A stretch of DNA of 41,440 nucleotides from Actinomycetes bacterium. Its GTDB lineage: Bacteria; Actinomycetota; Acidimicrobiia; Acidimicrobiales; RAAP-2. The stretch lies in contig JAKAFH010000008.1 in NCBI GenBank assembly GCA_021818025.1, forward strand, positions 1 through 41,440. Direction: 5' to 3'. Position numbers and translations under genes: made by a program. Each line of letters opens with the position of its first letter. Within the stretch, counting starts at the first letter, position 1. This document shows, one piece after another, positions 35,246-41,440 of the stretch. The notes beneath the pieces are model-generated. The model was not told where the DNA came from. It saw nothing but the letters and a program-made list of their open reading frames with translations, and ran no database searches.

Positions 35246-36163
35246 CTACCGAGAACCGTCCGCGGGCGCGGTCGGTGTCGAGATCGTCAGATCCAGCGTC
35301 GAAGCGCGCCCCGTCAAGCGGTCGAGCACGCTGCCCATCGAACCTTCGGTCTCGATCGCCCGGCGGATGACGATCGCCAGGGTCGGCAGCGCCCAGAAGT
35401 CGCCGCAGATCCAGAGGATCGCCGCGCCGATCTGCTGGTCGGCGAATGGCGACAACGTTACGCCAGGCACGTGGGCGTAGACCGCGTACCAGCTGACCGT
35501 CGTCAGGATGCTCATGGAGATCGCGAGCACTGTCATGAGCCCGTTGGTGAGCAGCACGGCGCCGATCTTCCACACGGTCCCCTTCGCCGGCTTCATCGGC
35601 GCCGAGGGGTAGATCTGGAGCCAGAACAAGGTGCCCGCTACGACGAAGCTCCCGTGCATCAGCCAGACGTGCACGAGGCCGTTTCGCTCGCTGAGGTCAA
35701 AGAGGGCCGGCACGTGCCACGCGAACATCACCCCGTTCATCAAGAACAGTGCGAACCACGGGTTGCGCGCGAATCGCCCGACAGCCCGCAGCCAACCCGT
35801 GGACCGGCGCAGGAACAGAAACCGTCCAACGCGTCGTCGCGCTCCGACGGGCAGCACGAAGAGCAGGGGGATCCACGGAGCACCCGCGACGATCAGCATC
35901 GGAACGAAGAACGCGATCACGACGTGTTCGATCATGTGCACGAAGAAGTACTGAGCCGCCCAGTAGTCCAGTGGCGACGCGATGGCGATCACCAGGAGCG
36001 CAAGACCCGCGTAGAACCGGTACGACCGGTTCCGGCGGCGCCGTCGATTGGCGGGCGTCGAGTGGCTCGCCATTCGGCGCAGCCCGACTTCGTGGGCGAA
36101 CGCGGTGGCTGCAAGTACGACGATCATGGGATCGAACGTCCAGTGGTGCACGAGGTAGTTCAC
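35246..36163 (-). CDS. CtaG-type cytochrome c oxidase assembly protein
   Basis: A 305-residue membrane protein of the caa3_CtaG family (Bacillus CtaG type, not Cox11). Seven or so helices carry the family histidines: HHWTFDP at the N-terminus, VHMIEH in helix 2, AWHVPALFDL, HVWLMH, and the ending DQQIGAAILWICGDF. These are thought to bind copper during oxidase maturation. The start is GTG 36163; the preceding 141-residue gene ends 12 bases upstream. A basic cytoplasmic segment NRRRRRNRSYR follows helix 1. A diverged paralogue lies at 38171-38944. Confidence 0.85.
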   Translation of the reverse strand: MNYLVHHWTFDPMIVVLAATAFAHEVGLRRMASHSTPANRRRRRNRSYRFYAGLALLVIAIASPLDYWAAQYFFVHMIEHVVIAFFVPMLIVAGAPWIPLLFVLPVGARRRVGRFLFLRRSTGWLRAVGRFARNPWFALFLMNGVMFAWHVPALFDLSERNGLVHVWLMHGSFVVAGTLFWLQIYPSAPMKPAKGTVWKIGAVLLTNGLMTVLAISMSILTTVSWYAVYAHVPGVTLSPFADQQIGAAILWICGDFWALPTLAIVIRRAIETEGSMGSVLDRLTGRASTLDLTISTPTAPADGSR

Positions 36164-36174
36164 GGCGCCATCCG

Positions 36175-36600
36175 TTACGGCGTTTCGGTGGGTGTCTGGT
36201 CGCCAAGGCGTTCGCCTCGAAATGCCGCCCCGCTATCGCTTTGCTCGGCGTCGGCCCGCTCGGCGTCGGCGACCTCGGCCTGGTGAGCCTGCCAGGCCCG
36301 CAGCATCCCGTCGTACTCTGGCGCGAGGCCGGGCTCGGTCTTGCGGCGCCGCTTCGGCGTGGCGTCGCCATGCAGCACCTTCCACCACATGTAGACGGCG
36401 AAGATTCCCAGCAGTGGCCACTCGAACACGTAGGCCCAACTCAGGGTATTGCCCCTTTCGGCCCGTCCCAACTCGAACCAGAACGCCAGTGAACACAGCG
36501 CAAGTCCGAGTACCAACACCGCATGGGTGCGCCACGCCTCGGCCCCGCGAAGCCGGCGCGGCGGCTGTCCGGGCGCGTCCTGACCCTTCGCACCACTCAT
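36175..36600 (-). CDS. small two-helix membrane protein, uncharacterised
   Basis: 141 residues with two hydrophobic helices (about 26-45 and 53-71) joined by FELGRAERGNTLSW, then a soluble charged tail rich in Ala, Asp and Glu. The block around GNTLSWAYVFEWPLLGIFAVYMWW is a pattern I recall from uncharacterised actinobacterial proteins; no function is known to me. It lies directly upstream of a ctaG gene and divergent from SCO1, suggesting a role around the oxidase. Its ATG follows TACAGT by six bases, so a leaderless transcript is likely. Confidence 0.65.
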   Translation of the reverse strand: MSGAKGQDAPGQPPRRLRGAEAWRTHAVLVLGLALCSLAFWFELGRAERGNTLSWAYVFEWPLLGIFAVYMWWKVLHGDATPKRRRKTEPGLAPEYDGMLRAWQAHQAEVADAERADAEQSDSGAAFRGERLGDQTPTETP

Positions 36601-36671: not shown

Positions 36672-37496
36672 ATGACCAGCGCCCCCCACGACGCCCCCGA
36701 TGACCACGACTCCGTGACTTCGGCGCCGATCATTTCTTCCGATGAACGAAGCGCGGCCTTTCACGCGGGCCGAACCCCGATACCGCCGAAGTTCTTTCTC
36801 TTGGTCGCCGTGGTCTTCGTTGTGCTGGGCCTGGGCGGCGTCGTGCTCGAGCGCGTTGTCGGCACGCCGGGCCAGACACCCATCGCGAGTCCTCCCGCCA
36901 CGACGACGCCATCCTCCCTGCCGAGCACGACCCACTCGATACTCGGCCTTGAGCTGCTCCCGAGCCGTCCCGCACCCCCGATCACCTTGACGGACCAACG
37001 CGGCGCCACCTGGCGGCTCGCGGCCCAACGGGGTCGAGTCGTGATCCTCGCCTTCTACAACCAGACGTGCAACGACATCTGCCCGGTCCTTGGCGCCGAA
37101 CTGCGCTCCACGATCTCGCTCCTCGGCACCAACGCCGGGCGCGTCGACGTGGCGATTGTCAATACCGATCCGACCCACGCCGCGGTCGTCGCCCTACCCG
37201 CGGCGCTCGTGCGACCCGGGTTGATCGGTCAACCGACTGTCGTGTTCCTGACTGGAACCCTCGCCGAGCTGGACGCCGTCTGGACGCACTACGGCGTCGA
37301 GGTTCGCGTGGGTCCCGCGCCGACCCCGAGCCTCCACAACGACCTGCTGTACTTCATTACGGCCGACGGGCGACTCCACGCGTTGGCGACGCCGTTTGCC
37401 AATGAGAGTCGAAAGGGGGTGTTCTCACTCGATGCCGCTTCACGGCGCGCCTTCGCCGCGGGCGTCGCAGAAGTCGCCGATAGTCTGTTGCCGTGA
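36672..37496 (+). CDS. SCO1/SenC-like copper chaperone
   Basis: 274 residues from ATG 36672; the 434-residue ORF-track start is a shadow extension. One N-terminal helix (about 40-60) anchors a periplasmic-side thioredoxin-fold domain. The copper motif is CNDIC (Cys133 and Cys137; family CxxxC), and His222 in SLHNDLLYF is the expected third ligand. SCO proteins deliver copper to the CuA site of cytochrome oxidase subunit II. It is transcribed against the oxidase genes and its stop overlaps the next gene as GTGA. Confidence 0.88.
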   Translation: MTSAPHDAPDDHDSVTSAPIISSDERSAAFHAGRTPIPPKFFLLVAVVFVVLGLGGVVLERVVGTPGQTPIASPPATTTPSSLPSTTHSILGLELLPSRPAPPITLTDQRGATWRLAAQRGRVVILAFYNQTCNDICPVLGAELRSTISLLGTNAGRVDVAIVNTDPTHAAVVALPAALVRPGLIGQPTVVFLTGTLAELDAVWTHYGVEVRVGPAPTPSLHNDLLYFITADGRLHALATPFANESRKGVFSLDAASRRAFAAGVAEVADSLLP

Positions 37497-38170
37497 GTAC
37501 CCCCGAGAGCGAGGTCCGAGCGAGTTCGTACGACCCCGCGTCGATGCCGGCGTCGTCGTTGATCGCGAGCAAGGCGGTCTGGTACCGACGCCCGTGGTTC
37601 CTGATCGCGATAGTGATCGTCGTCGCCATCGCGGTATCGGTCGTCTCAGATTTGCCCCATACGGTGACCAAGAGTGAGGACGCGGCCCAGCAAAACGGGA
37701 CGATCGCGCTCATCAACACCGACATCGCGCCGTGCGCCTATGCGCTCCATGAAAGCTTTCTCATCTACAACCGGCTTCGCTCGGGGACACTCACGTCGGG
37801 AGACATTCAGATGTCGGCCAATCTCTTGACCCAGGATCAAGCTTCGTGCACCTTGGCCACTGGCCCGATCTACGACCTCGCGACCAACATCCAACCCGTC
37901 GACACCGCCGCGGGTAAGAAGATCGATGCGATGTACGGCGTCGTCATCACGTGGACGACGAACGACGCTAAGGACGCCATCTACGATATCGCGATGGCCG
38001 TTCGCCAGCCCACCAATCAGAAGTGGGTACGCGACCTCACCACCCGCCAGCGCTACCTAGCCCAGGACCGCGCGCGCATCGTCAAGTTGGTCGCCGAGGC
38101 GAGTCACCTCGTTGGGGTCACGCTCACGCCGGTCAAAGTTCCCCAACTCGCCCCGCTGCTTGGAACCTAG
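37493..38170 (+). CDS. membrane-anchored protein of unknown function
   Basis: 225 residues from GTG 37493. A single hydrophobic helix (WFLIAIVIVVAIAVSVVSDL, about 35-54) anchors an extracytoplasmic domain that is largely helical, with two cysteines (in APCAYAL and QASCTLA) that could pair. I recognise no domain. Coupling to the SCO1-like gene suggests a joint role in oxidase copper loading or assembly; this is inference from position. Its stop TAG is immediately followed by the stop of the convergent ctaG-like gene. Confidence 0.7.
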   Translation: MSTPESEVRASSYDPASMPASSLIASKAVWYRRPWFLIAIVIVVAIAVSVVSDLPHTVTKSEDAAQQNGTIALINTDIAPCAYALHESFLIYNRLRSGTLTSGDIQMSANLLTQDQASCTLATGPIYDLATNIQPVDTAAGKKIDAMYGVVITWTTNDAKDAIYDIAMAVRQPTNQKWVRDLTTRQRYLAQDRARIVKLVAEASHLVGVTLTPVKVPQLAPLLGT

Positions 38171-38944
38171 TTAGTTCTTCGTCCCAAAGAAGCCCCGAGC
38201 CCGCTCGCGGCGCACCAGCCGATACAACTCGGCGTCAGGATCTTCTTCGGACTGCAGCCACTGCACCAGGTTCCAGAAGATGATGGGCAGGAAGACCGCC
38301 GCGGACACGAGCCAGATGGAACTGACACTCAGCTGCTGGTCGGCCGCGAGTGACGGACCGTGTCCCGGGACGTGGGTGAAGGCGTGATACCACGACGATC
38401 GCGACATGCCATTCATGTACGCCATGATCCACACGACCCACATCACCACCGCCGAGATGCCGATTCGATATGGACGAGTGGCTCGGGGCGTCAGCGGCGG
38501 GGACTCGATCAAGTCACGAAAGAGCGCCACACCGCTGACGCCGAGCGTGACGAACTCCACGACGGTGAGCCACGGGTGCCGAACGACGGCGTCGACCACG
38601 GGCGACACGCGCCACAACACGGCGATGGCGAGGAAGATTCCCGCCGCCACGATCGATCGACCGTGGTTGACACCGGTCGCCACCGGATCACGCGAACCGT
38701 CCGGATCAGCGACGCTCGACGGCGTCGAGCGCGACCAGACCGGCCAGCGCCGCACGCCGAGGCGGCGCCACGGCCCCCCCGCCACGAACAACACCGGCGC
38801 CACGAAGGCGAACGACTCGAACTGCAGGGTCTGGACGTATTCGTACTGGCGGGCCCACGACCCGAGTGGCGGGACCAACCAAATGAACCACCACACGACC
38901 CCTAGGACCGCGAGCACGTCGCGGAATCCTCGGTGCCCCAACAT
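38171..38944 (-). CDS. CtaG-like paralogue lacking the conserved histidines
   Basis: A 257-residue membrane protein that aligns without gaps over long stretches with the CtaG at 35246-36163. YVQTLQFESFAFVAPVL here matches FVHMIEHVVIAFFVPML there, and both end in SWYxxxxHVPG...ADQQ. The histidines of the family are replaced: HxxxH becomes QxxxF, AWHVP becomes LWRVS, and HVWLMH becomes LTVVEF. It is therefore unlikely to bind copper in the same way. It is the last gene of the ctaD-ctaE operon, preceded by AAAGGGGG. A diverged or structural assembly role is inferred. Confidence 0.75.
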   Translation of the reverse strand: MLGHRGFRDVLAVLGVVWWFIWLVPPLGSWARQYEYVQTLQFESFAFVAPVLFVAGGPWRRLGVRRWPVWSRSTPSSVADPDGSRDPVATGVNHGRSIVAAGIFLAIAVLWRVSPVVDAVVRHPWLTVVEFVTLGVSGVALFRDLIESPPLTPRATRPYRIGISAVVMWVVWIMAYMNGMSRSSWYHAFTHVPGHGPSLAADQQLSVSSIWLVSAAVFLPIIFWNLVQWLQSEEDPDAELYRLVRRERARGFFGTKN

Positions 38945-38962: not shown

Positions 38963-39076
38963 TTACTCCGACGGGTGTCGCTGGAAGAACCCCCAGATCA
39001 GCACGCCAAACAAGACGCCGAGTAGGACCACCATCGTCTGGACCTGCGGTCCGATGTAGATGTCAACTCCCTGCAC
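38963..39076 (-). CDS. 37-residue single-helix membrane peptide
   Basis: Too short for the ORF track. GTG 39076 is preceded at eight bases by AGGAGG, and the frame encodes 37 residues ending in TAA at 38963. One hydrophobic helix spans MVVLLGVLFGVLIWGFF, with a short polar N-terminus and RHPSE at the C-terminus. It lies between ctaE and the ctaG-like gene, 29 bases after ctaE. Small helical subunits are common in oxidases (CcoQ-like and caa3 subunit IV types), so a supernumerary oxidase subunit is the likeliest role, unproven. Confidence 0.65.
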   Translation of the reverse strand: MQGVDIYIGPQVQTMVVLLGVLFGVLIWGFFQRHPSE

Positions 39077-39105: not shown

Positions 39106-39762
39106 TTACAGCAGATAGAACATGGCGAAGAACAGGACGCCACTCAATCCGACGAAGCCCCAGAAGTAGGTCATCGCCGATACGTTGGCCCGGAACGACT
39201 GGGCCGTCGCGTGCGCCGAGAGTTCGGGTCGATCGCCGCCGATCTCGCGGTGCAGGCGCAACGAGCGAGCGAGGGCGGTCTCGAGCCAGTAGGCACCAAC
39301 AACCAACGTCGCGATGTTGATGACGACGAAGCCGATGAACGTCGACGCGTAGCCGCTTGAGCCCGGGTAAAAGGACAACGCCGTCAACTCCCAGATCTGC
39401 AGCACCAATGCCAGCACCGCGGCGAAGAGCGCGGTCCAGCCCGCCACCTGCCAGTCCACGACGCCACCCTTGCGCAGTCGCCACTGCCCGTAGATCGCCA
39501 TCAGAGCGGCGAGGATCGTCAGGGAGAAGATCGTCCAGCCGTAGGCCGTCGGTGCCGTGACGTGATTCGGGCGCCACAGCAGACCGTTGTTGCTCGATCG
39601 CAGATAGAAGTACGCGAAGGCGAGCGAGGCCAGCAGGAACGTGTACATCCCGATGAACAACCGCCCGCCGGACCACACTGATCCGATGTGCGCGCGTAGT
39701 TCGAACTCATCCTCTTCCGGGGTCGAGGTGTACCCGTTTGACTGTTTCATAGTTCCACTCAT
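39106..39762 (-). CDS. ctaE: cytochrome c oxidase subunit III
   Basis: 218 residues from ATG 39762, preceded by GGAG eight bases upstream; the ORF-track start at 39822 overlaps ctaD. Five helices of the bacterial short form (lacking the first two of seven) are visible, with GGRLFIGMYTFLLASLAFAYFYLR and the FWGFVGLSGVLFFAMFYLL end. The subunit stabilises subunit I and its proton uptake. It follows ctaD by 16 bases. No subunit II gene is in the window. Confidence 0.9.
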   Translation of the reverse strand: MSGTMKQSNGYTSTPEEDEFELRAHIGSVWSGGRLFIGMYTFLLASLAFAYFYLRSSNNGLLWRPNHVTAPTAYGWTIFSLTILAALMAIYGQWRLRKGGVVDWQVAGWTALFAAVLALVLQIWELTALSFYPGSSGYASTFIGFVVINIATLVVGAYWLETALARSLRLHREIGGDRPELSAHATAQSFRANVSAMTYFWGFVGLSGVLFFAMFYLL

Positions 39763-39778
39763 CAGCTGTTCTCCGTTC

Positions 39779-41440
39779 CTACGCCACGCCACTGCCGTCG
39801 TGAGACGACACGACCGGTACACGTTCGTCGCCGCCTAGGTCGGCAACCGCGGGAGCGCTCGCCTCGCTGTAGTGATACGGGTCGGTCAGGATCACCGGGA
39901 TCCGCTCAAAGTTGTACGCGGGCACCGGTGTCGCGGTCTGCCACTCCAGGCCGAGGGAGTCCCACGGGTTGGCGGGCGCCTTCTGGGGACTGATGTACAG
40001 CGACCACACCAGGTTGAAGAAGAAGATAAGGAACGAGAAGCCCAGCAAGAAGGCGCTGATCGACGAGAAGTCGTTCAGGCCCTGGAGGTTCTTCGCGTAC
40101 GTGAACACCCGTCGTGGCTGGCCGAGCAGTCCGATGATGAACATCGGGAAGAAGGTCAGGTTGAAGAAGATGAACATCGTCCAGAAGTGCCAGAGGCCGA
40201 TCTTCTTGTTCATCATCCGCCCGGTCATCTTGGGCAGCCAGTAGTAGAGGCCACCCATGAAGGCGAAGAGCAGTCCACCCATGATCGTGTAGTGGAAGTG
40301 CGACAGCACGAAGAATCCGCCGTGCACCGTCACGTTCACGGGGACGTCCGACAGGAACACGCCCGTGACGCCACCGATCAAGAAGTTGAAGTAGAGCGCC
40401 ATCGCGAACAGCATCGGTATCTCGAATCTGATCTTCGATTTGTACAACGTGCCCATACCGACCAGGTAGATGAAGCCAGTGGGAATCGAGATCAGTTCGG
40501 TCGTCAACATGAACAGCGGTCGCATGTCAGGGTTGATGCCGCTCTGGAAGAGGTGGTGCTGCCAGACGAAGAACGACAGCAGTGACACGCCAATCATGCC
40601 CGCGGCACCCACCTTGTACGCGAAGAGCGGTTTACGGGTGAAGACCGGCAGGATCTCACCGACGATGCCAAAGCCCGGCAGCGCCATGATGTAGACCTCG
40701 GGGTGCCCGAAGAACCAGAAGAGGTTCTCCCACAGGTACGAACTGCCGCCGTGCTCGGTGACGTAGAACGCCGTCTGGGCGGTCTTGTCGAGCAGGCCGA
40801 ACAGGCCCGCGGCGAAGAGCGTGGGCGTGGCGAGCGTGAGCAGAGCTGCCGTAGCGAGGATCGACCAGACGAAGATCGGCACCCGGCTCCAGGTCATGCC
40901 CGGCGCGCGATAGTTGATGATGGTCACCGCGATATTGAAGCCCGCAGCCATCATGCCCATCCCGATGACCGCGAAGCCAAAGAGGTAGGACACCATGCCC
41001 GGGCCCGCCTGGGTTTGCAGCGGCGCGTAGCCGGTCCACCCCGTCGGGAAGCCACCGTAGGGCAGCGCCGAGAAGATGACCATGTAGCCCGCGACGAAGA
41101 TCCAGAAGCTGAAGGCCTCGATGCGCGGGAACGCCATCCGGCGCGAGCCAATCATGAGCGGCACGAGGTAGTTGCCCAGCGGACCGACCACGATTGAGGT
41201 GGCCATCATCATCATGATCGTGCCGTGCTCGCTCACGATCTTGATGTACGTGTCCGCGCTGAAGTAGTGCGTCGTGGGGTTGAGCAGCTCGGTGCGAATC
41301 GCCATGGCCAGCAGACCACCGGTGAACATGAAGAGCAGCACACCGACCACGTACTGCAACCCGACCGTCTTGTGGTTGGTGCTGTAGCGGAAGTACTTGG
41401 ACCAGTCGTCAACCTCGACTTCCTTCCGTGGCTGGCGTCC
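39779..41440 (-). CDS. ctaD: cytochrome c oxidase subunit I, 5' end outside window
   Basis: 553 residues are visible; the frame is open to the window edge and reads KYFRYSTNHKTVGLQY before the ORF-track start, so the true start lies beyond 41440. All metal ligands are present (track numbering): His45 and His356 for heme a, His354 for heme a3, His219, His268 and His269 for CuB, with Tyr223 for the His-Tyr cross-link and Glu221. Yet the D-channel Asp is Arg74, the Asn pair position is Glu81, the K-channel Lys is Ile297, and the Mg-site Asp is Gly347. It is a divergent A-type oxidase. ctaE follows 16 bases later. Confidence 0.93.
   Translation of the reverse strand, partial: GRQPRKEVEVDDWSKYFRYSTNHKTVGLQYVVGVLLFMFTGGLLAMAIRTELLNPTTHYFSADTYIKIVSEHGTIMMMMATSIVVGPLGNYLVPLMIGSRRMAFPRIEAFSFWIFVAGYMVIFSALPYGGFPTGWTGYAPLQTQAGPGMVSYLFGFAVIGMGMMAAGFNIAVTIINYRAPGMTWSRVPIFVWSILATAALLTLATPTLFAAGLFGLLDKTAQTAFYVTEHGGSSYLWENLFWFFGHPEVYIMALPGFGIVGEILPVFTRKPLFAYKVGAAGMIGVSLLSFFVWQHHLFQSGINPDMRPLFMLTTELISIPTGFIYLVGMGTLYKSKIRFEIPMLFAMALYFNFLIGGVTGVFLSDVPVNVTVHGGFFVLSHFHYTIMGGLLFAFMGGLYYWLPKMTGRMMNKKIGLWHFWTMFIFFNLTFFPMFIIGLLGQPRRVFTYAKNLQGLNDFSSISAFLLGFSFLIFFFNLVWSLYISPQKAPANPWDSLGLEWQTATPVPAYNFERIPVILTDPYHYSEASAPAVADLGGDERVPVVSSHDGSGVA

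Follow-up and report, generated by a model that had tools for sequence, protein, structure and literature searches.

A CtaG paralogue lacking the core histidines and its apparent dedication to one oxidase in Acidimicrobiales

Proteins of the caa3_CtaG family most commonly have seven transmembrane helices, and 6 to 9 are reported. Their mode of action is debated, with CuB, CuA or neither being loaded (PMC9145763, PMC13344008). In Corynebacterium glutamicum, loss of CtiP, a CopD-CtaG fusion, destabilises the bc1-aa3 supercomplex (PMC9145763), which implies that a CtaG domain can matter for stability. The CtaG proteins of acidophilic iron-oxidising Proteobacteria have eight transmembrane helices and variant potential copper ligands and keep an invariant aspartate (PMC8239418).

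Here, we describe a CtaG paralogue of the Acidimicrobiales, CtaG2, that has none of the core histidines. The window, i.e. the whole stretch of DNA that was analysed (41,440 nucleotides), is one whole contig of a genome of 2.06 Mb in 148 contigs. As the initial annotation had it, two CtaG-family proteins are encoded here, and both match PF09678; a third caa3_CtaG of the same genome lies on another contig. In the window, ctaE is separated by about 30 bases from a 37-codon gene and the latter by about 18 bases from ctaG2; sco and orf225 on the plus strand point toward ctaG2, and orf141 and ctaG1 lie beyond them, on the minus strand again. The features are:

35246..36163, minus strand: ctaG1, caa3_CtaG with the full histidine set, 305 aa, seven transmembrane helices (PF09678, E 2.7e-43, 148.5 bits)
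36175..36600, minus strand: orf141, conserved small membrane protein upstream of ctaG1 (no family match)
36672..37496, plus strand: sco, SCO1/SenC copper chaperone (PF02630, E 1.3e-10)
37493..38170, plus strand: orf225, conserved membrane-anchored protein, convergent with ctaG2 (no family match above cut-off)
38171..38944, minus strand: ctaG2, His-less caa3_CtaG paralogue, 257 aa, six predicted transmembrane helices (PF09678, E 5.3e-18, 65.7 bits)
38339..38341, minus strand: codon D202 of the DQQ motif (D in 60/60 sequences)
38552..38566, minus strand: codons T127 to F131, aligned with H165 and H170 of CtaG1, E130 between (60 sequences)
38609..38611, minus strand: codon R112, in place of the WH histidine H150 of CtaG1 (R in 60/60 and 21/21)
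38819..38833, minus strand: codons Q38 to F42, aligned with the HxxxH pair of CtaG1 (60-sequence alignment)
38963..39076, minus strand: micropeptide, 37 aa, single transmembrane helix, candidate small oxidase subunit (homologues, pN/pS)
39106..39822, minus strand: ctaE, very divergent subunit III (position after ctaD, weak COX3 similarity)
39779..41440, minus strand: ctaD, subunit I, truncated at its 5' end where the contig stops (PF00115, E 2e-127)

CtaG2 passes the Pfam gathering cut-off for caa3_CtaG (65.7 versus 27.7 bits) and aligns well with CtaG1, as first noticed by eye of sequence, the profile-profile comparison being near end-to-end (E 1.8e-24). PF09678 is its sole match above cut-off in hmmscan, which found PF12270, the actinobacterial subunit IV, neither in CtaG2 nor in the micropeptide. 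The CtaG equivalog TIGR02737 gave no match to CtaG2 at E 1, and CtaG1 is also below its cut-off (62.7 versus 279 bits). CtaG1 has the usual ligand residues that were ascribed to it, i.e. H76xxxH80, WH150 and H165xxxxH170 (ligand string HHWHPHMH). In these five columns CtaG2 has Q38, F42, R112, T127 and F131 and thus 0/5 core histidines, the exact column of H170 hinging on a one-residue gap. Alignments bear out both the replacements read from the sequence earlier (HxxxH by QxxxF, WH by WR and HVWLMH by TVVEF) and the retention of SWY, HVPG and DQQ.

Among 60 CtaG2 sequences, none has histidine at the five core positions, and a search for other histidines at the metal positions found none. Position 38 is Q or E and position 42 is F or Y in 60/60, and R112 (R also in 21/21 order-sample sequences), E130, Y186 and D202 are invariant. 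The initial claim that all conserved histidines are replaced holds for the five core positions and goes too far beyond them: H191, which CtaG1 also has, is found in 52/60 sequences and H123, which is no ligand position, in 51/60, neither being conserved throughout the deeper CtaG2 lineages. E130 was considered as a novel residue of CtaG2 and rejected as such, E being the usual residue of the family (motif ...EH) and the Met of CtaG1 the exception. As judged from the alignments, loss of the canonical histidine site in CtaG2 is well supported, and copper would no longer be bound at the old site.

In AlphaFold2 single-chain models, CtaG1 has seven helices (pLDDT 80.4) and CtaG2 six (pLDDT 82.8). 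The missing helix is TM1, which in CtaG1 bears two further commonly conserved histidines (H7 and H24). A PDB fold search with both models gave nothing below E 0.5, a sequence search found no solved structures of CtaG relatives, and we know of no caa3_CtaG structure. Loop charge leads us to place the five former ligand positions and D202 at the outer ends of the helices, matching the publication on the family (PMC8239418). D202 is probably the invariant Asp and possible ligand described there.

Among 397 genomes of the order that were searched, the window's own genome and 20 others from five families have a His-less CtaG2, and a scan of GTDB release r220 found 61 ctaG2 loci, most of the source genomes being MAGs, in which mis-binned contigs are possible. 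For the GTDB scan the deep alignment gave no sufficiently conserved pattern, and a pattern from seven closer sequences was used instead. The relatives carry the labels Acidimicrobiaceae or Acidimicrobiales, and many of their isolate names refer to bog or palsa. All 21 His-less proteins fall on one branch (SH-aLRT 96, or 100 without the ligand columns). In searches of the class and phylum, those of the best hits outside the order that were aligned all have His at the core positions, and as far as tested CtaG2 is confined to Acidimicrobiales. Compared pairwise with its four closest relatives, ctaG2 has a dN/dS of 0.12-0.15, close to the 0.08-0.11 of ctaG1 in the same four genomes; by this measure CtaG2 is clearly under selection and not decayed. 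No published description of such a clade was found in the open literature, subscription papers lying outside the search.

The suspicion that the His-less clade always lies beside ctaE is matched by gene order: ctaG2 follows ctaE on the same strand in 21/21 genomes of the order sample and in 59/59 uncut loci of the GTDB scan, another CtaG standing between the two genes in five of the 21 (G050, G125, G365, G290 and G092). This intervening CtaG itself lacks several His in two of those five genomes. ctaD, ctaE, the micropeptide gene and ctaG2 form one tightly spaced unit, sco/orf225 and orf141/ctaG1 are in separate units, and the orf225 and sco neighbourhood is near-invariant around ctaG2 loci. 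Related genomes do have the pair. Within the window's genus, ctaG2 is present in 5 genomes and absent in 9/14, in exact match with the CtaE type: in the nine genomes without it the CtaE is of another type, a micropeptide was not detected, and any CtaG found near the oxidase has a different, partly eroded ligand set, e.g. HHSHPMME. Family f32 and two f16 genomes have the CtaE-micropeptide type but no ctaG2, so that ctaG2 is an extra component that such an oxidase can do without. Taken together, we consider a dedicated link of ctaG2 to one oxidase to be well supported by gene order and co-occurrence.

The 37-residue peptide pointed out in the initial annotation is a real coding gene, with homologues in 87 loci and a pN/pS of 0.23 in frame versus 1.3 and 2.1 in the other frames. 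In loci that are not cut off it lies nearly always between ctaE and ctaG2, and in 37/56 loci of relatives, counted with script-chosen start codons, its stop and the start of ctaG2 share 4 nt, which suggests coupled translation of the micropeptide and ctaG2. It has no match above cut-off in Pfam, NCBIfam or PDB; possibly it is a small subunit of the oxidase that has so far escaped notice. A one-helix micropeptide with a motif like LTFAIPxGxxxxxxWGFFQRR follows ctaE across families of the Acidimicrobiales, with or without ctaG2 (further coordinates are 6715-6831 in L160 and 4484-4627 in L169); as it also occurs where ctaG2 is absent, the idea that it is a specific partner of CtaG2 is weakened.

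The oxidase looks functional from its motifs. CtaD has the active-site motifs GHPEVY, WQHH and HFH, and CtaC of relatives retains the CuA motif CxELCGxWHxxM, which suggests that copper still needs loading. The ctaE product has no Pfam COX3 match, even in 15 relatives scanned singly; its assignment is based on its position after ctaD, on a marginal match to COX3 chains (E 0.19) and on a homologue that forms the C-terminal part of a COX1 frame of 848 aa in family f23. A PF12270 (CtaF) gene lies beside the other oxidase in 11/12 related genomes, and in no relative does a CtaF gene share a contig with the ctaG2-linked oxidase. The window's own genome has one COX1 and no CtaF was found in it, close relatives having two COX1 and one CtaF; the missing second COX1 and CtaF are probably a gap of the fragmented assembly.

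Further CtaG copies are present in 8/8 ctaG2 genomes counted, mostly with the His set where aligned, and in most loci ctaG1 lies with sco and orf141 within about 3 kb of ctaG2. In L088, L096, L101, L111-L113 and L123 the neighbouring CtaG1 is without two His (HHWMPHML and similar), and ctaG2 is unchanged there. The ligand sets of CtaG proteins are variable in the order (HHWMPHML, HHSHPMME, HHWFPMMH). In L197-L208, from the same genus or family, another oxidase type is preceded by a CtaG whose ligand set is partly eroded (HHSHPMME and similar), suggesting that erosion of CtaG ligands is recurrent in this group. Since other CtaG proteins of Acidimicrobiales have lost some of their ligands as well, CtaG2 is the far end of a continuum and less surprising. 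Family f32 has a more divergent CtaG-like protein encoded between ctaE and the micropeptide (4756-5580 in L169, 6968-7765 in L171, 5067-5864 in L173 and 4697-5512 in L168, one of the four in a closed genome). These proteins have no Pfam match, are alignable only in the C-terminal half (alignment A5; HHalign probability 93 with CtaG2 and 87 with CtaG1) and were left out of the CtaG2 counts; they are possibly a second, independent His-poor CtaG. The membrane-anchored orf225 product has two cysteines, is paired with Sco in nearly all loci and is a possible new copper-assembly factor. In many relatives, homologues of orf141 flank the oxidase cluster on either side.

Combining these data, we suggest as the rather probable reading that CtaG2 is a dedicated, non-copper-loading membrane partner of one oxidase, functioning as an accessory subunit or as an assembly scaffold. 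We read CtaG2 as a structural partner because the structural genes and ctaG2 form one unit and the copper genes with an intact CtaG are in neighbouring units. In this model, (i) CtaG2 would have originated by duplication of a caa3_CtaG, (ii) the histidine site of the outer face would then have been lost, together with TM1 in most lineages, while the CtaG core was kept, (iii) a single operon would yield CtaG2 along with the oxidase subunits and the micropeptide, CtaG2 retaining the part of CtaG that faces the oxidase but not the copper site, and (iv) CtaG2 would touch the oxidase physically and act as a stoichiometric accessory subunit or as a scaffold holding subunits I and III, copper being delivered by Sco and a CtaG that has its histidines. 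Two points count against this reading: the CtaE-micropeptide type also exists where ctaG2 is absent, and the acidic residues left in CtaG2 could, with H123 and H191, make up another site. Of the copper-free scaffold or permanent oxidase partner proposed initially, the loss of the site and the dedicated link to the oxidase stand, and the words copper-free, scaffold and permanent partner are interpretation. Tentatively, and with less confidence, we propose that CtaG2 and the micropeptide are part of the mature oxidase of Acidimicrobiales, a copper-chaperone-type assembly factor having turned into a permanent subunit.

Alternatively, CtaG2 could be half of a hetero-oligomer with CtaG1, in which CtaG2 would give the structure and CtaG1 the copper site for CuB loading. 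The proximity of ctaG1, sco and orf141 in most ctaG2 loci and the retention of at least one other CtaG in all eight genomes counted are consistent with such an arrangement; however, CtaG1 has lost two His in several loci with ctaG2 unchanged, and ctaG2 is linked to ctaE and the micropeptide and not to ctaG1, and we regard a hetero-oligomer as unlikely. Doubtful, too, is a CtaG2 that handles metal or protons via a rebuilt outer-face cluster of Q/E38, E130, D202 and perhaps H123 and H191 around R112. A cation site is disfavoured by the Arg that is invariant where a ligand used to be, and conservation of H123 and H191 does not extend to all deeper lineages, although the first three positions are conserved in 60/60 sequences and the two histidines in most, D202 is probably the possible ligand of PMC8239418, and CtaG ligand sets are plastic in the order.

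That CtaG2 and the micropeptide replace the actinobacterial subunit IV (CtaF, PF12270) is very unlikely in our opinion. The own assembly has no CtaF match and no relative has its CtaF gene on the contig of the ctaG2-linked oxidase, as replacement would have it, but with PF12270 beside the other oxidase in 11/12 relatives the absence probably reflects a gap in the assembly, and one CtaF could serve both oxidases; moreover, CtaG and CtaF are not homologous. Finally, a protein that has lost one helix and its presumed active site might be a decaying duplicate without function, a reading that the dN/dS of about 0.12-0.15, the positions invariant across five families, the fixed operon position and a frame that is open in every locus make hardly credible.

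With CtaG2 as a dedicated membrane partner, nature would provide a selected CtaG without the presumed metal site and tied to one oxidase, in which oxidase binding is separated from copper handling. The residues kept despite the His loss (Y186, D202, R160 and W172) would be the first candidates for a role in oxidase binding. The carriers of CtaG2 are some soil and acid-habitat actinobacteria.

Among known systems, caa3_CtaG (PF09678; Bacillus subtilis CtaG) resembles CtaG2 in near full-length homology, in TM2-TM7, in SWY and DQQ with its Asp and in being encoded with cta genes, whereas CtaG2 is without the five core His and TM1 and is encoded within the structural operon, next to a second CtaG that has its His. 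CtiP likewise has an actinobacterial CtaG domain; unlike CtiP, CtaG2 has no CopD fusion. In contrast to CtaG of acidophilic iron-oxidising Proteobacteria, with eight transmembrane helices and alternative ligands, CtaG2 has six, and its site is devoid of histidine. Small oxidase subunits (CtaF, CcoQ/FixQ, ba3 subunit IIa) share with this locus a gene after ctaE and a one-helix micropeptide alongside; however, the micropeptide matches no family above cut-off, and CtaG2 is a six-helix CtaG homologue.
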